In this document: piece after piece, positions 3,863 through 24,988 of the stretch
Numbering within the stretch: the stretch's first letter is position 1
Layout of the letters: the number at the start of each line of letters is the position of its first letter
IMG/VR virus record: IMGVR_UViG_3300049483_000100
Coordinates: 1 to 25,004 of that record
Reading direction: 5' to 3' (one strand)
Length of the DNA: 25,004 nt
Source of the DNA: a virus
The notes under the pieces: generated by a model
The model's database searches: none
The model's input: only the letters and a program-made list of their open reading frames with translations
Told to the model about the DNA's origin: nothing
Program-made: the position numbers and the translations under genes

Positions 3863-4576
3863 CTAGATGCCGAACGACAGGTCGTTCCAGGCGTAGGAGC
3901 CGTCTGATTGCAGTGCAGCCCACTTCAGGACTGCGGGCGAGCCTGTGTCTTTGACGATGATGAGCGTGTTTTCGTAGGCTGAGGAAGCGGCTGGAAGCGT
4001 AGCCGTGGTGAAGATGCTGAAGGTTGAGACTCCTCCACCGCCACCTCCGGTTCCGGCCACAGCGGCAGGAACGATGGTGATGGCGACGGGCGTGCCTGCG
4101 GCAGAGCGGATAAGCTCCCAAATGTCCACCGTCGAAGCGTGCCAGTAGAAGTAGTTTCCACCGGCGTCGCTTATCACGGTGGAGTTGGTGTTCGCGAGCG
4201 CCCCGTCCATGACCGAGTAGGTCGGCACCCCGCTACCATCGTAGTTGGGCGAGGAGGAGCCGGAATCGCCCTCCAGGTTGAAGATGTAGTCCCCCGCAGC
4301 CACGGTATAGGTTCCGCTCGAAAGAGTGATCGTGGTGGCCGTGGTGGAGGCTACAGAGTAGATCCCTGAGAAGGTGGATGTCCCGATGGGGTTAATTAGG
4401 AGCCTGTTCCCGGCTGTAATGCCATGATTAGCCCGTACGGTAAAGGTGCTGCCAGAGGAGGCAGAGGCCACCTGAGCGCCGGGGTTGTATGCGGAGACGG
4501 AGTAGCCTGCGCCGGGGGCAAGGTAGCCTCCTGAGAGCGTTGTGACGTTGTTTGAGCGGAAGGAGAACGTAGCCAT
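3863..4576 (-). CDS. Virion structural protein, tail fibre/decoration-like (237 aa)
   Basis: This 237-residue protein is Ser/Thr/Gly-rich. Its N-terminal half reads as short beta strands (TFTVRANHG, STTATTITLSSGTYTVAAGDYIFNL). A GGGGGG hinge follows near residue 178, then a C-terminal module ENTLIIVKDTGSPAVLKWAA...DGSYAWNDL. This last module resembles the short C-terminal domains of phage fibre and baseplate-associated proteins, which often end in a D/G-Y/x-W-x-x-L pattern. AAGGAG lies 8 bases before the ATG. It sits 12 bases after the connector candidate and 13 bases before the large fibre, so all three are probably co-translated. The family is not firmly recognised; a fibre-anchoring or short-fibre role is an inference from composition and position. 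Confidence 0.55.
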   Translation of the reverse strand: MATFSFRSNNVTTLSGGYLAPGAGYSVSAYNPGAQVASASSGSTFTVRANHGITAGNRLLINPIGTSTFSGIYSVASTTATTITLSSGTYTVAAGDYIFNLEGDSGSSSPNYDGSGVPTYSVMDGALANTNSTVISDAGGNYFYWHASTVDIWELIRSAAGTPVAITIVPAAVAGTGGGGGGVSTFSIFTTATLPAASSAYENTLIIVKDTGSPAVLKWAALQSDGSYAWNDLSFGI

Positions 4577-4588
4577 TGGCGAGGCTCC

Positions 4589-5329
4589 TTAGTAACCTGG
4601 GTAGTAAGGCCACGAGTAGTAGCCTGCAAATGTAGGAGGTGGTAGACGAAACCGCCTGTGCTGATCCTCGTGCTGACGGTCAGACTTCTCAAAGCGGCTC
4701 AGTGCGTCGCGAGCGTCCATGGCTTTGACCGGAAGCGCCGGGGAGTTTGGGGCATAGATCGTAAGCGCCTCGACCTGCGCCCCGTAGACCAGGGCGTTTT
4801 CGATCTCCTGCGGGGCGTCGAGGATGTCGCCATCCTCTGCAAGCAGCGCAAATCGCTTGTAGTAGGAGCCTTTGATGTATTGGGTGGATGCAGATGCGCC
4901 GTAGTCTGGCTGCGGAAGAAGCCGTATCTTCCCGTCCGCATGGACATTGAACAAGGTGTAGTAGCAGGTGAATGTCCCAAGGGACGCCGGGCGCGTCACG
5001 AACACCTTGTGATACTCGGCGTAGTCGATATAGGTCAGTTCATTGATCTTGTCGCCATGGACATCGGTGACACGAAACTCGATCTCCTTGTAGAACAGGG
5101 TCGGAAGTGACGTATCTGCGCCATTTGTGACAGTGATGATAGCCGTCTCGACCTTGTTGCATTCGTAGAGAGCGGCGTTGAACTTGACGATTTGCTCGTT
5201 GAGGAACTCGCCGCAAGCAGCTAGGATGGTTGGTTGGCGCTCGCCTCCGACTATTCTGGCAACCTTCTTCTTGAGGTAGCCGAATGTGCCGGGCTTGGTG
5301 CTGCTGTAGGAAGTGACTACGGTGCTCAC
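4589..5329 (-). CDS. Probable head-tail connector/adaptor protein (246 aa)
   Basis: The middle of the protein, IRLLPQPDYGASASTQYIKGSYYKRFALLAEDGDILDAPQEIENALVYGA (broken here into its elements: P-x-P-D, a Y-x-K-G/Y-Y strand, a D-D/I-x-x-P-x-E loop, then a helix A-L-V-Y-G-A), matches the general pattern of phage neck/adaptor proteins that dock under the portal. The N-terminal ~60 residues look helical (GYLKKKVARIVGG, CGEFLNEQIVKFNAALYE), as in gp4/gp6-type adaptors. The C-terminus is Tyr/Pro-rich (FAGYYSWPYYPGY). It starts with GTG at 5329, with GGAGG 7 bases upstream, and overlaps the glycosyltransferase stop by four bases (GTGA). Its position before fibre genes fits a connector role, which is inferred rather than proven. 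Confidence 0.5.
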   Translation of the reverse strand: MSTVVTSYSSTKPGTFGYLKKKVARIVGGERQPTILAACGEFLNEQIVKFNAALYECNKVETAIITVTNGADTSLPTLFYKEIEFRVTDVHGDKINELTYIDYAEYHKVFVTRPASLGTFTCYYTLFNVHADGKIRLLPQPDYGASASTQYIKGSYYKRFALLAEDGDILDAPQEIENALVYGAQVEALTIYAPNSPALPVKAMDARDALSRFEKSDRQHEDQHRRFRLPPPTFAGYYSWPYYPGY

Positions 5330-8811: not shown

Positions 8812-9529
8812 GCAGCACCTCTCCCGTGTAGGGCGGAATGTAGGGAAGGATCTGGAACAGGTCGTGTAACTCAAAGTAGTCCGGGTCGGCCTCTTCCATC
8901 TTGCGTGTCGGATGCTCGATGCGCACCCATGGGCAGTAAAACAGCGAGACGCCTGTGGTTCCTGCGTGCTGCGCCACTGACGTATCCCCTCCTGCTCCCA
9001 TGGCCTTGCGAACATCGGCGGTGTAGCCATTGAAGAAGCTGATGTGATGGAGGCGGCACGCGCCGCCAAGGATAGGAACCACGGCAAGCGGGATCTTCCC
9101 TTTGAGTTTGATGCGGGCGGCTATTGGCACAGGGTTCTTCAGTCCCTTGATGACAGGAGCGAAAACGCACCTCTGCCCAGAGAACGCATACACCTCGCGT
9201 TCGATTGCCAGCATCTTCTTGAGCCATCTCGGAGTCTTCCAGAGAAGGTCGTCATCCACCTTGACGATGAAGTCGTAGTCTTCTGCCTCGGCGATTCTGA
9301 GGATTGCGGCGAGGGCAACATGCTGACCCACGTTCTCGCCTGACCCGGCAATGTCAAAGCCTGCAAGCGATGTCGGAAGGTCGTGCGAGTTGCGCCAGAG
9401 AATCCATCGTGCAGGCGCTCCCATTGTGGATTGGGCTTTTGTGAGGGATGCGATGGCCGGTGCGACTCGCGCTCCTGCTGCCCGCGAGACGGTGTAGACG
9501 AGGACGCGAGGGCGTTCAATGTCGCTCAC
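8804..9529 (-). CDS. Glycosyltransferase, GT-A fold (GT2-like, DDD motif)
   Basis: The 241-residue protein begins RPRVLVYTVSRAAGARVAPAIASL, a compact first strand and helix of a GT-A fold. It has a metal/nucleotide-sugar motif in FIVKVDDDLLW (residues 87-97; D92-D94). GGACRLHHISFFNGY (155-169) resembles an acceptor loop, and GGDTSVAQHA (180-189) occupies the usual ED/base position. The last ~40 residues are rich in acidic and aromatic residues. It probably adds a sugar to a glycan or protein in the host cytoplasm; donor and acceptor cannot be read. It is coupled by an ATGA overlap to the upstream GT2 gene and by an 8-base overlap to the deacetylase gene, so the three are likely made together. 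Confidence 0.7.
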   Translation of the reverse strand: MSDIERPRVLVYTVSRAAGARVAPAIASLTKAQSTMGAPARWILWRNSHDLPTSLAGFDIAGSGENVGQHVALAAILRIAEAEDYDFIVKVDDDLLWKTPRWLKKMLAIEREVYAFSGQRCVFAPVIKGLKNPVPIAARIKLKGKIPLAVVPILGGACRLHHISFFNGYTADVRKAMGAGGDTSVAQHAGTTGVSLFYCPWVRIEHPTRKMEEADPDYFELHDLFQILPYIPPYTGEVLHE

Positions 9530-16792: not shown

Positions 16793-16838
16793 GCGTCAAC
16801 TTGGCACATGCGTCAATTTGGCGCAGTCAATTTGGCAC
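16793..16838 (-). promoter_or_regulatory. Triple GTCAAnTTGGC repeat, likely operator/promoter
   Basis: On the plus strand, GCGTCAACTTGGCAC (16793-16807), GCGTCAATTTGGCGC (16810-16824) and GTCAATTTGGCAC (16826-16838) follow each other with a 16-17 base period. Read leftward, each contains a TTGAC box, and TTGACG-N18-TAAACT fits a sigma-70 promoter roughly (5/6 and 4/6). It overlaps the last codons of the large terminase and precedes the 30-residue gene. One helical turn and a half between units suggests cooperative binding of a regulator. Confidence 0.55.
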
Positions 16839-18881
16839 ACCGTCCCACCCTGTAATATTGCCTTTGGCAACCTTCCATAGAGCCGCGCCCTCGTGGTTGG
16901 ACTGCTGAACCATAGGCGATCCCGGCACACGCCATCCGCCCACATCTCCCACGACATTCTGCTTTCGGACTTTTACGTCTGGGTGGAAGAAGTTCGCAAG
17001 GGCGTCGGCAGCATCGTCTGAGGAATACTGGCCAAGGTTCACTAGTTCCTTCTTGATCTGCAAAATGATGGGGTTTGGCGAGTAGGAGCCATCCTTGTTG
17101 CGACGACGCACAAAGAAGATTTCTTGGCGCTGGAATGGGCCTTGTAGCGCGTCCTTGATACGAATCTCCTTGCGACCCATGGCATTGATTGTGATCGGGC
17201 GATAGTCGAGCGGCAGATGGACCGCATTGAAGGCATCGCGGATCGAAGTGCCTAGCGTGTCCTCGCTCACCTTCTGCTTGACGATTGTTACGATTCCGTA
17301 GGTGCGCGCCATGGAGACAAGGATGTCCAGGAACTCCTTGCTGCGCAGGGTCTGCGAGCGCGTGGCGTCAGAAAAGATGTAGAGACGACCTTGGGCGTCC
17401 CAACCGCCCGCAAGCATGACTGTGTGGTCGCCGCCGCGCTTAGCAGCATCGTCCTTCAGTGCCGTGTCTATGCAGATCATTTTGCCGAACAGAACTGGTG
17501 GTGCTTGCGGAGGGTCAATCTCAAGGAACCATTCCTCAAGAAAGGGTTCGGTGCCAGGGGCGCGGCAGATGTTCATGTACTGCTGCCACCAGAAGGTTTC
17601 GCCAAGTTCAGGGTCGAGGCGCATCGCCTCTAGCATGTCGAGGAGGATGGCGCGGGAGAAGCGCGTCGGGAAGATTGGATCGCCTGATTCGAAGTCGGGC
17701 TTGCCATCCTTCTCAAAGGCTGCGCGGACAATCCATTCGTAGGGTGTTGAGGTGGCCGTGCCGCCCTGGGACTCTGGCACCATGACTGAGTAGAGGTCGT
17801 AGTGCGCGTAGCGAGTCCCGAGGATGCGGATGATGCCTCCGGGGTCGAGTAGCGGCAGGACTTTGTTGAACGATGCGCGGGCCTTGGAGGCTTGTTCCTC
17901 GGTGGCTACGTGCTTACGCTCGATGGGGTCATCGAAGAGAATTACGTCGAAGTGCTGCGAGGCGAGGGAGGCGTCAAGGTGCGCGGAGGTGAGCGAGGGC
18001 GCGGTGATGGTGATGTCCGTGCGGGAGGGGATGGTGAACTCCTGCTCCGTGCCGAAGCGGGCGTCTACTGGAGGACAGGCTTCTGGAAAGAGCCAGCGCA
18101 TGCGAGGGTTGCGATGGAAGGCGTCCTTGGCGACTCCGGCGAAGTTGATGGCGTTCTTCTCGACTGCGCTGACGACGAGGATGCGCCAGTTCGGGTGCGT
18201 GATGAGAAGCCATACGGCGAAGGCGAGAGTGACAACGCTGCTCTTGAAGTGTCCGCGAGGGGCAAGGATGCCGCGCCGCTTCTTGGTCAGGTCTTGGACG
18301 TATTCGCACCACTCCTTGTGCAAGGGCTCGTAGAAGACTGACTTCTTGTAGCAGCAGCCTTCAATGCCTTCCGAGGGCGGCGTGGTGCTGCCATTGCATT
18401 CGATGCTTGGGTGGAAGACGACTTCGGTGAGCATGACCCACAGCGAGTTCTTTGCAGCGATGCGGAGGGTTTGGCGGTATTGCTCCTCAGCGTCGGCCTG
18501 AAGGCGGCGGGCAGCAAGTTCCTGCTCCTTGGTGAGAAGGGCGTCAGCGATGTTTAAGGGCTCTGCGGCGCGGATGGTGGCGTCGAGCATGGCAGTGCTG
18601 CGGATGATCTGCTGCGCCACGGTGTTTTGCGTAGGCAGGGCAAGGACAGCGTCTTCGGCGGCTGAGGAGGCAGAGTTCTGACGCGCCTTGGCAAGACGAA
18701 CAGCGCTAGCGACTTCTTCTGCCGGAAGCCCTAGTCTGTGTAATCGCTGATAAACAGCATTGGGAGTCTCAGAGAGGGCTACGTTGTAAGGCCCGCGCTT
18801 GGCGCGCTTCTTGAGCGCCTTCTCTGCTGCGGCGGCTTCGCGTGCGAGGCGCTTCTTGAGGTTGTAGTCGCCCTGTCCCAT
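16827..18881 (-). CDS. terL: Terminase large subunit
   Basis: The 684-residue protein pumps phage DNA into the procapsid and cuts it. Its ATPase has a Walker A in LAPRGHFKSS (206-215), a Walker B in VILFDDP (313-319) and a coupling motif ILGTRYA (353-359). The nuclease half begins with MICIDTALKDD (468-478, catalytic D472) and ends with SSDDAADALANFFHP (620-634), supplying further metal-binding aspartates. The ~200 residues before Walker A are longer than usual: a Lys/Ala helix (residues 8-30), then SETPNAVYQRLHRLGLPAEEVASAVRLAKARQ (37-68), which could bind DNA. The ATG at 18881 lies 10 bases after the preceding stop; a longer reading from 19010 would overlap that gene and is rejected. No good Shine-Dalgarno is visible, so coupling to the upstream gene is likely. 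Confidence 0.95.
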   Translation of the reverse strand: MGQGDYNLKKRLAREAAAAEKALKKRAKRGPYNVALSETPNAVYQRLHRLGLPAEEVASAVRLAKARQNSASSAAEDAVLALPTQNTVAQQIIRSTAMLDATIRAAEPLNIADALLTKEQELAARRLQADAEEQYRQTLRIAAKNSLWVMLTEVVFHPSIECNGSTTPPSEGIEGCCYKKSVFYEPLHKEWCEYVQDLTKKRRGILAPRGHFKSSVVTLAFAVWLLITHPNWRILVVSAVEKNAINFAGVAKDAFHRNPRMRWLFPEACPPVDARFGTEQEFTIPSRTDITITAPSLTSAHLDASLASQHFDVILFDDPIERKHVATEEQASKARASFNKVLPLLDPGGIIRILGTRYAHYDLYSVMVPESQGGTATSTPYEWIVRAAFEKDGKPDFESGDPIFPTRFSRAILLDMLEAMRLDPELGETFWWQQYMNICRAPGTEPFLEEWFLEIDPPQAPPVLFGKMICIDTALKDDAAKRGGDHTVMLAGGWDAQGRLYIFSDATRSQTLRSKEFLDILVSMARTYGIVTIVKQKVSEDTLGTSIRDAFNAVHLPLDYRPITINAMGRKEIRIKDALQGPFQRQEIFFVRRRNKDGSYSPNPIILQIKKELVNLGQYSSDDAADALANFFHPDVKVRKQNVVGDVGGWRVPGSPMVQQSNHEGAALWKVAKGNITGWDGVPN

Positions 18882-18891
18882 CGTAAGCTGC

Positions 18892-19434
18892 TTATGATGC
18901 GGACGTAGGCCCAGACTCGGGCGTCCCTGTGCCATTCGTTGGCGGGCAGAGAAGCGCAAGGGAGTCTTCGCCCATCTTGGTTGCAGCCGCGGCAGCGTCC
19001 TTTGGCGCAAGCATCCCTTGGAAGCGGACTATTTGCTCGACATACCAAGAGGTTTTCTTCAGGTCGGCACGCTGGCGAGGATCGCGCGTGTCCCAGACAA
19101 TGGTTTGCTTCTCGCCTTGGATTGTGGAGAGCACTTTGAGGGAGAAGGCTCCTTGAGCCATGATGGCCTCGCGATGATCCTTGGCAGTCATGCCATCTTC
19201 GCCTACCGGGGGGATGGGGTAGGAGAGGGCGGAGTAGATGTTCTCATGGGCCTGGAGGACTTCCCGCTGCGCGGCGAGGTTTTTCGTTTCCTCTGTGGCA
19301 AGAGCGACATCGGCTTTACTGACGAGCTTTGGCGGGGACCATTCAGAGAGGGCTAGTTCCTGCGAAGGGACTTCAGAGATCAGTTCCGCTCGCGCAGCAG
19401 GAAGTTTTGCTTTGAATGCCATAGAGGCATCCAT
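18892..19434 (-). CDS. Candidate terminase small subunit or packaging accessory protein (180 aa)
   Basis: The call rests mainly on position: first gene of the leftward unit, 10 bases before terL. The protein is largely helical and charged, with long helices around KADVALATEETKNLAAQREVLQAHENIYSAL (about 40-70) and TAKDHREAIMAQGAFSLKVLSTIQGEKQ, then DLKKTSWYVEQIVRFQGMLAP, and an Ala-rich then disordered C-terminus (PPTNGTGTPESGPTSAS). Small terminases recognise the packaging site and usually have an N-terminal helix-turn-helix plus oligomerisation helices; no clear helix-turn-helix is seen here. Neither the ATG at 19434 nor the one at 19422 has a strong ribosome site. Confidence 0.55.
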   Translation of the reverse strand: MDASMAFKAKLPAARAELISEVPSQELALSEWSPPKLVSKADVALATEETKNLAAQREVLQAHENIYSALSYPIPPVGEDGMTAKDHREAIMAQGAFSLKVLSTIQGEKQTIVWDTRDPRQRADLKKTSWYVEQIVRFQGMLAPKDAAAAATKMGEDSLALLCPPTNGTGTPESGPTSAS

Positions 19435-19783: not shown

Positions 19784-20848
19784 GTGAGCGAATCTGAGGC
19801 GAAGGTGGTCGGATGGGAACAGAACCCACTCCTACAGAAGATTGGTTTCGCCCCGTTCACAGTCAAGCAATTCTACGAAGATGAGATTGAGCCTATTCCT
19901 TGGGCTGTCAACGGGGAACTCATCATGGAGAGCGGCTTTACAACAATCTCCGGTGAAGGCGGCATAGGCAAGTCTTACCTACTTATCTCCCTAGCGATTG
20001 CTCTCGCATCAGGAACGCCCTGGTTTGGGTTCTTCGATGTCACGCGACCCTACAAGGTGCTGTATATCGACATGGAGATGCCCGCGAAGGCCACAAAACT
20101 CAGGTTCCAGAGGATGACACGCGGCGCGTTTAAAGAGCCGCTAGAGATGCTTGAGGCTAACCTGATGGTCATAGGGCAAGGCATCTTCAGCGTAGACAAC
20201 ACTGAGGGTGTAGAGGCGCTCAATGCCGTTGTCAGGAAGGAGAAGATCGACTTCGTCCTGATCGACTCTTTCCGGCAGATCTTTGGTGGAGACGAGAAAG
20301 ACAGCCAGTTCACTGTAAAAATCTTCAAGGAGTTGTCGAAGATCCGTAACCAACACAACTGCGGCTTTATCTTCATTGACCACCAGCGAAAGCCATCCGG
20401 TATCGCGGAGTTGAATAAACCCAAGGACAGGCTGACAGGTAGCGCCAACAAGCGAAACAACCTCGACAACCACATTGTCGCCGAGGAAGGTCCGGTTGAC
20501 GACTCCATCCATGTCATCCCTGAGAAGGACCGGCACGGGGAGGGCGCAAGCGGCACAGACCCCTTCGATGTCCACTTTGACCACGACGACCGCAATGACG
20601 AAAACGGACCCTTCCGGCTGATCTATGACCCGGAGGCTTCCGGGGATGATCAGGCCCAGATTTTAAGGTTCCTGAAGACCCAGCCAGACGGTGCTGCCCC
20701 TGTGTCCAAAATCCAACTGGACACAAGTGGACAAAAGGGACACAAGAAAGCTGTCCAGCGTGCGACCGCGAAGCTGGTCAAGCGTAACCTGTTGAAAAAG
20801 CAATGGGTTGGCCGTGTCATGTGGGCCATTTTGCAACTGGACAAATAG
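19784..20848 (+). CDS. RepA-like RecA-fold ATPase / replicative helicase (354 aa)
   Basis: The core matches the AAA_25/RepA group of hexameric ATPases: Walker A GEGGIGKSY (57-65), Walker B FVLIDSFRQIF (157-167), and a third motif GFIFIDHQRKPSG (194-206) where DnaB/RepA-like helicases have the glutamine/histidine switch. KVLYIDMEMP (91-100) holds the conserved Asp-Glu pair after the Walker A domain. The C-terminal ~65 residues (QAQILRFLKTQPDGAAPVSKI then KKAVQRATAKLVKRNLLKKQWVG) look like a winged helix, suited to DNA binding. The likely role is unwinding at the phage origin, where the adjacent repeat array lies. It starts with GTG at 19784; GAGG is 7 bases upstream. It is the first gene of the rightward unit. 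Confidence 0.85.
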   Translation: MSESEAKVVGWEQNPLLQKIGFAPFTVKQFYEDEIEPIPWAVNGELIMESGFTTISGEGGIGKSYLLISLAIALASGTPWFGFFDVTRPYKVLYIDMEMPAKATKLRFQRMTRGAFKEPLEMLEANLMVIGQGIFSVDNTEGVEALNAVVRKEKIDFVLIDSFRQIFGGDEKDSQFTVKIFKELSKIRNQHNCGFIFIDHQRKPSGIAELNKPKDRLTGSANKRNNLDNHIVAEEGPVDDSIHVIPEKDRHGEGASGTDPFDVHFDHDDRNDENGPFRLIYDPEASGDDQAQILRFLKTQPDGAAPVSKIQLDTSGQKGHKKAVQRATAKLVKRNLLKKQWVGRVMWAILQLDK

Positions 20849-20982
20849 GCAAGTGGACACGCAACTGGACAAAACATGCTCATACTAAAAAAGCTAGGCA
20901 GGGCGCGGGTAATGTGTCCAACTGGACAGTGGACACCTACCCCCTATAGATATCGGGGGCTGTCCACTTGTTCTGTTGTCCA
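20703..20982 (+). repeat. TGGACA repeat array with dyad: candidate replication origin
   Basis: At least twelve TGGACA/TGTCCA hexamers fall in 280 bases. Most belong to two variants, CAACTGGACA (near 20714, 20833, 20862, 20918 and inverted at 20977) and CAAGTGGACA (near 20725, 20851, and inverted at 20961; CAGTGGACA near 20928). The first copies lie in the 3' codons of the ATPase gene; the rest lie in the 186-base spacer after it. The spacer has a dyad: direct copies to the left, CCCCC-TATAGATATC-GGGGG (20940-20959) at the centre, inverted copies to the right. Such arrays are typical binding sites for replication initiators (iterons). An alternative is an autoregulatory operator. The spacer holds no convincing gene. 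Confidence 0.65.
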
Positions 20983-21034
20983 GTTGCGGGGTGCTTCAAC
21001 CTACCCCGCAGATACGTCATTGGAGGCAGTCTAA

Positions 21035-21658
21035 ATGTGTGACCATTCCAACGGGCTATGCGTGTGGGGGGAGCATCTTGTGGCTCCCATCCCACCGCCC
21101 AGGCCCCATGAGGAGGCTAAGTTGACCACAGAGGGCCACCAACATGTATTTGAGTGGAGTTGGAAGTATTCGTGCTTCAAGTGCGCATGCACAGCCGTTG
21201 ACGCGCCACCATTACACGAGGAGCAATCCATGAGCGGAGAGTGTCGCTGCAAGGTGTGTGAGGAGTGGGTGCCTGCGAGGTTGCAGCCTGAGGGCGCAGG
21301 GGAGGCTGCTGCTACCCCTCCCCCGCAGAGGTACGTACAAACAGAAAGATCGGAGCAGAAGAGAAAATCGGGGCATGCGCAGATGCCTTACGCGCAGACG
21401 CCCTATGCCTCTGGCCTTATGGCTGCAACCCCGGCTGAAAACCTGCGAGTTGCCCCTGTAGCGCGTCATGATGGCGTAGGATTGACGTTCCCTGCTACGC
21501 CAATGCCGCCGCCCTTCTACGCGGATGCGATGCTCCCAGGGCAGCCTGTGAGGTCATGCGTGGATTGTGGAGTGAGTTGGAAGGGTGAGCCTGAGGGGTG
21601 TCCTAGGGACTGTCAGCGCCGTAGGAAGGCTACGGCTATGGCTCAGGAGGTGCGCTGA
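21035..21658 (+). CDS. Cys-rich protein, probable zinc-binding (207 aa)
   Basis: Four cysteine clusters are visible: CDHSNGLC at the N-terminus, CFKCAC (47-52), CRCKVCEEW (70-78) and SCVDCGVSW...GCPRDC near the C-terminus. The pattern CxxC repeated with spacing of 15-25 residues is that of zinc ribbons or knuckles, though no named family is recognised. A Pro/Gln/Ala-rich linker (about 85-165) joins the two halves. GGAGG lies 8 bases before the ATG. It is the first gene after the repeat array, and the next gene starts within its stop codon (TGATG). A role in binding nucleic acid or host protein early in infection is possible only by analogy. Confidence 0.7.
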   Translation: MCDHSNGLCVWGEHLVAPIPPPRPHEEAKLTTEGHQHVFEWSWKYSCFKCACTAVDAPPLHEEQSMSGECRCKVCEEWVPARLQPEGAGEAAATPPPQRYVQTERSEQKRKSGHAQMPYAQTPYASGLMAATPAENLRVAPVARHDGVGLTFPATPMPPPFYADAMLPGQPVRSCVDCGVSWKGEPEGCPRDCQRRRKATAMAQEVR

Positions 21659-24733: not shown

Positions 24734-24892
24734 ATGGACTCCCCTACAGACCTCGCCCCCGCCATCAACTACTTCCTCTCAGCCTATTGGCCTGTCCTGC
24801 TGCTAGGAGCCTTACTTATCTTCAACATCCTCGCAGGCGACCCCGCTGGAGAAATATGGCGCAGCACAGCACGTAAACTGCGCAGGCACTAG
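24734..24892 (+). CDS. Small membrane protein (52 aa)
   Basis: One hydrophobic span of about 20 residues (YFLSAYWPVLLLGALLIFNIL) lies between a short acidic N-terminus and a basic C-terminus (RSTARKLRRH), predicting an N-out inner-membrane protein. AAAGGAG is 8 bases before the ATG at 24734; longer upstream starts lie inside the previous gene. It resembles minimal holin-like or exclusion proteins in size and topology, without further evidence. Its stop codon begins the tandem repeat array. Confidence 0.6.
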   Translation: MDSPTDLAPAINYFLSAYWPVLLLGALLIFNILAGDPAGEIWRSTARKLRRH

Positions 24893-24988
24893 CCTATAGC
24901 TACAGCCTATAGCTGCAACCTATAGCTACAGCCTATAGCTACAGCCTATAGCTGCAACCTACAGCTACAGCCTATAGCTACTAGCTAC
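24889..24988. repeat. 13-bp tandem repeat array with 39-bp higher-order unit
   Basis: Seven consecutive 13-base units run from 24889 to 24979, then a partial copy. Type A is ACAGCCTATAGCT; type B is GCAACCTATAGCT or GCAACCTACAGCT. The order after the first degenerate unit is A-B-A-A-B-A, that is two 39-base blocks of A-B-A. Each unit carries a CTATAG core. No gene crosses the array and no A-rich or T-rich flank is seen; the last 16 bases of the window are unique. It could be a second initiator-binding array, a partition or packaging site, or slippage-prone repeat. Confidence 0.8.

Follow-up and report, generated by a model that had tools for sequence, protein, structure and literature searches.

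A two-orientation TGGACA iteron array at the 3′ end of a RepA-like helicase gene, a probable replication region of an uncultured phage

What is a dense array of short repeats doing at the 3′ end of a phage ATPase gene, and which protein reads it? The window analysed here is the entire 25,004-base IMG/VR record in which an earlier note had described such an array, and had proposed that it is the phage origin, bound by the ATPase or by a small Cys-rich neighbour.

The repeat array and its dyad

Exact copies of CAASTGGACA were observed eight times within 20714-20986 (273 bases) and nowhere in the remainder of the record. The density of iterons at the ATPase 3′ end was confirmed, since 12 TGGACA/TGTCCA cores lie in 20703-20982, compared to a maximum of 4 in any 290-base window of 200 third-order Markov simulations (25 kb of sequence each). 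When all hexamers were scanned over the full record, this array was the top cluster (P about 1e-16), and the runner-up (P 2e-11), at 24.9 kb, was a tandem array unrelated to it. Seven 13-base tandem repeats (AGCCTATAGCTAC) stand at the record's right end, at 24891-24981. The elements of the TGGACA array, found by exact-match search (iterons), by the hexamer-cluster scan (cores) or by DNA folding over 20915-20986 (dyad), are as follows.

20703..20708, minus strand: core TGTCCA, coding
20714..20723, plus strand: iteron CAACTGGACA, coding, frame 0
20724..20733, plus strand: iteron CAAGTGGACA, coding, frame 1
20752..20757, minus strand: core TGTCCA, coding
20834..20843, plus strand: iteron CAACTGGACA, in the last codons of the ATPase gene
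20850..20859, plus strand: iteron CAAGTGGACA
20862..20871, plus strand: iteron CAACTGGACA
20915..20920, minus strand: core TGTCCA
20919..20928, plus strand: iteron CAACTGGACA, forming TGTCCAACTGGACA with the TGTCCA at 20915
20929..20967, no strand: dyad GTGGACA..CCCCC TATAGATATC GGGGG..TGTCCAC
20930..20935, plus strand: core TGGACA of the truncated iteron AGTGGACA
20961..20970, minus strand: inverted iteron CAAGTGGACA
20977..20986, minus strand: inverted iteron CAACTGGACA

The array spans the 3′ end of the ATPase gene and the gap that follows, with cores from about -145 to +140 relative to the stop codon. The first copies are coding (QLDTSGQ) in two different reading frames, and there is therefore no protein repeat. 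The exact copies run in the order C, G, C, G, C, C and then inverted G, C; the two variants had been said to alternate, which holds only approximately because the truncated AGTGGACA at 20930 comes after the sixth exact copy. The positions bear out the description of partly coding direct copies followed by inverted copies beyond a CCCCC/GGGGG stem, as the two final exact iterons are inverted and lie past this dyad. The stem itself is real, but it is not central as had been thought: it lies off centre at 20940-20959, in the right third of the array. Folded as DNA over 20915-20986, the hairpin made by the stem and its flanking inverted iterons gave a z of -5.0 and beat 200 of 200 shuffles. The dyad contains an 11-base CTATAGATATC core, and neither a terminator nor a promoter was found at it.

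Other signs often looked for at origins were scored over the same region. No DnaA box (TTWTNCACA) was found in 20600-21100, and a pronounced AT-rich stretch was not seen between the iteron sets, where 30-base windows peak at 63% AT (20870-20899). GC skew, which the earlier note had offered as a check, showed no switch at 20.9 kb, and this result counts neither for nor against an origin because the record may be a fragment.

The adjoining helicase and the search for its relatives

The gene that carries the array, its C-terminal domain and the neighbouring ORF are listed below.

19784..20848, plus strand: AAA_25 / RSF1010 RepA-like helicase gene, 354 aa (PF13481, E 3.9e-30; structure match to RepA 1g8y)
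20630..20833, plus strand: predicted C-terminal winged-helix domain, about residues 283-350, the proposed iteron reader (AlphaFold2; PDB matches)
21035..21658, plus strand: Cys-rich ORF, several Cys pairs in its product, without a match in Pfam or PHROG

The AlphaFold2 model of the ATPase (alignment with 21 relatives, mean pLDDT 80) has as its best solved-structure match RSF1010 RepA (1g8y; TM 0.78 by target length), the hexameric replicative helicase of an iteron replicon. The model and the PF13481 match both point to the RecA-fold helicase domain that characterizes RSF1010 RepA, and the protein is predicted to be a RepA-like helicase extended at its C terminus by a winged helix. This added domain comprises the last 70 residues and appeared in both AlphaFold2 predictions, that of the whole protein and that of the domain alone. 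In the PDB it matched other winged helices, among them Rpa2, ADAR1 Zalpha and the MCM4 C-terminal domain; some of these bind protein, so that a winged helix alone is no proof of DNA binding.

Among the neighbours tested, the ATPase is the sole protein with a recognisable replication fold, and no match to the RepC initiator or RepB′ primase families was found among the record proteins scanned. The suggestion that the Cys-rich neighbour is the binder found no evidence in its favour.

Protein searches returned no close relatives in viral contigs or in genome contigs, and a search by the DSFRQ codon pattern returned none. A further search for relatives recovered only L404 and L405, which are the contigs of L319 and L360, and phages searched by DNA and by the C-terminal domain yielded no relatives. 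A two-copy pattern scan returned mostly chance pairs. The sole match in the plasmid search was C. bescii pATHE01, which has a weak GAGCAA cluster at the 3′ end (P 5e-5), and in Bordetella phage BPP-1 (cited in PMC4234260) no repeated hexamer was seen by eye.

Hexamer clusters at the 3′ ends of helicase genes

A scan of viral contigs for three close TGGACA copies recovered unrelated phages with similar two-orientation clusters. Twelve large ORFs were chosen whose 3′ end lies at or close to such a cluster, and 10 of them carry VapE, AAA_25, DUF5906 or DUF3987 domains (replicative helicase/primase); of the other two, one is an integrase and one had no match. In the reverse survey, VapE and AAA_25 genes were gathered by protein similarity, near-duplicates were removed, and any hexamer over-represented near the 3′ end was accepted at a cut-off of P<1e-6; since the best of many hexamers is picked per locus, these P values are not absolute and are comparable only with those of matched controls.

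The association of clusters with helicase 3′ ends was observed directly. Of 90 non-redundant viral loci for VapE/AAA_25 helicases, 55 have such a hexamer cluster at the 3′ end. The 5′ ends of these genes gave 0 of 80, and other ORFs gave 6 of 361 at their 3′ ends (Fisher P 1.5e-39). As a positive control, the survey scan was applied to P4 and picked up the type I iterons annotated in crr. Both orientations occur in 53 of the 55 cluster loci, and the median cluster span runs from the stop codon to +239. One survey locus (L236) is the same locus as its query (L178), itself picked by its TGGACA cluster, and without it the count is 54 of 89. The remaining VapE queries were also picked by TGGACA clusters, and their matches mostly carry other hexamers. 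The idea that TGGACA is a common rule was dropped, as the clusters of relatives use many hexamers, ATCACA at the AAA_25 locus L335 being one. In the AAA_25 subset, a clear cluster was found in 14 of 31 loci, leaving over half without one, and the annotated AAA_25 phages Opt-155, Lebethron, CaiB, Baee and CRP-810 showed no 3′ cluster.

The VapE iterons (loci L236-L315) share a loose KNNACM form in 29 of 41 cases, compared to 4.4 expected from the shuffled consensus. None of the 14 AAA_25 iterons has this form, and the P4 iteron GGTGAACA fits it. Iteron type matched the C-terminal domain weakly, with a partial Mantel r of 0.10 (p 0.04, VapE set only), and coevolution of the two is only suggestive.

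TGGACA repeats also occur in a second context, other than the helicase 3′ end. Clusters of TGTGGACAATG-like repeats (L182 5044-5444, L154 92-482, L127 826-1158, L223 5201-5417 and L136 1390-1705) lie upstream of a small ORF and an ORF of roughly 508 aa, and the latter gave a weak Terminase_6C match in L154 and L182.

Candidate functions and known systems

Taken together, these results suggest that the array is probably the replication origin of the phage, or else a region that replication requires in cis, as with P4 crr, and that the winged helix of the helicase itself probably binds it. This is the best-supported reading because of the RepA-type fold, the C-terminal winged helix and the same 3′ placement in P4, in SaPI/PICI and at 55 of 90 loci, and the original proposal of an origin bound by the ATPase appears to stand in part on the same points. 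We propose a self-recruiting initiator, since layout, helicase and winged helix point to one. In this view the product of the adjoining gene is a ring-shaped SF4 helicase with a RecA fold, of the same type as RSF1010 RepA. The TGGACA iterons, in both orientations, would be bound by its C-terminal winged helix, which would load the ring beside the dyad, and the strands would open there for replication to begin. Counted against this reading are the lack of a close relative, of a skew switch in this possibly fragmentary record and of a strong AT-rich stretch, as well as the absence of clusters in most AAA_25 loci and in the annotated AAA_25 phages and the weak link between iteron and C-terminal domain.

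The iterons could instead be origin or copy-control sites whose reader is a different protein of the phage or the host, an initiator in its own right such as RSF1010 RepC, with the ATPase recruited indirectly. RSF1010 iterons are indeed read by RepC and not by the RepA helicase (PMC4234260), and a separate reader would also fit the weak match of iteron types to C-terminal domains. We nevertheless regard it as unlikely, since the ATPase alone among the tested neighbours has a recognisable replication fold, and it has its own predicted winged helix, a domain of the kind employed by P4 alpha and presumably by pRN1 ORF904 (PMC4234260). An operator or autoregulatory site for a downstream early operon, rather than an origin, has a smaller chance still. 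The gene at 21035 does begin shortly after the right part of the array, and inverted repeats are possible in operators; however, no promoter-like site was found in the interval between the ATPase gene and that gene, 12 cores across 280 bases, several of them intragenic, would be unusual, and in the survey the 5′ ends of helicase genes, unlike their 3′ ends, were free of such clusters. That the array is a packaging or terminase recognition site (pac/cos) is very improbable: in several viral contigs, TGGACA clusters also precede a terminase-like pair of genes, but the cluster of the window sits at a helicase 3′ end, about 1.7 kb from the terminase large-subunit gene (16827-19010, minus strand) with other ORFs between. 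A chance or coding repeat is the least credible of all, for although some copies lie within coding sequence, they use two frames and both strands, most lie past the stop codon, and no simulation of the 200 reached an equal density.

Beyond this locus, the winged helix and the 3′-end iteron array may form a module that replicative helicases of unrelated types (VapE, D5-like and RepA/AAA_25) carry in phages, with a different iteron for each, the window being a case in which a RepA-type helicase turned into the reader of its own origin; we hold this broader view tentatively and put it at somewhat below even. If it is true, the end of the helicase gene would directly show where many phage origins lie, and origins are unknown for most uncultured phages. 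The survey suggests that phages whose helicase is of VapE or AAA_25 type commonly have the 3′-end layout, with many different iterons, and therefore origins and their cognate DNA-binding domains might be predicted in bulk.

For P4 alpha (PMC4234260), SaPI Rep and SCCmec Cch2 (PMC7581432) and the PICIs (PMC6092414), a self-recruiting initiator such as we propose is already established in outline. The winged helix of P4 alpha reads the iterons, and the protein carries a fused DnaG-type primase (PMC4234260). In P4, the annotated crr (4291-4590) has 10 type I iterons and lies 46 bases 3′ of alpha, which ends at 4636. Like the window, it presents short iterons in both orientations over about 300 bases directly 3′ of an initiator helicase gene, and its type I iteron GGTGAACA resembles the GTGGACA of the window, which has GTGGACA and CTGGACA. 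A further cluster of iterons lies at the P4 ori (9310-9413). The helicase of P4 alpha belongs to SF3, whereas the ATPase of the window has a RecA fold of SF4 type and lacks a primase.

PICI origins lie directly 3′ of rep (PMC6092414), and SaPI Rep and SCCmec Cch2 each use the C-terminal domain to recognise iterons located 3′ of the gene that encodes them (PMC7581432). Like the window, SaPI/PICI (Rep, Pri-Rep) have iterons directly 3′ of rep, in two sets (PMC6092414, PMC7581432); unlike it, they use a DUF927/D5-type helicase, and they have an AT-rich region between the iteron sets, whereas none is evident in the window. For pRN1 ORF904, a cis element downstream of the replication gene is required, and one is proposed for phage BIP-1; ORF904 and the BIP-1/BPP-1 replication proteins have a C-terminal winged helix (PMC4234260). 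These systems differ from the window in having a large stem-loop instead of iterons, and a prim-pol with an SF3 helicase. RSF1010 divides the tasks among RepA, RepC (the iteron binder) and RepB′ (the primase) (PMC4234260), whereas in the window the winged helix is predicted to be fused to the helicase, so that a RepA-type helicase seems to take over the origin reading that is a separate protein's task in RSF1010.

The window shares with the P4/SaPI/PICI type the two-orientation iterons directly 3′ of a helicase gene and, as predicted from the model, the C-terminal winged helix, but it has an AAA_25 domain of RepA fold in place of an SF3/VapE/DUF927/D5 helicase. By helicase type it is not a member of the P4/SaPI group, because its motor is RepA/SF4-like and not SF3 or D5-like. 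The layout is known from P4 and the staphylococcal islands, and what looks new here is the different helicase type that carries it.
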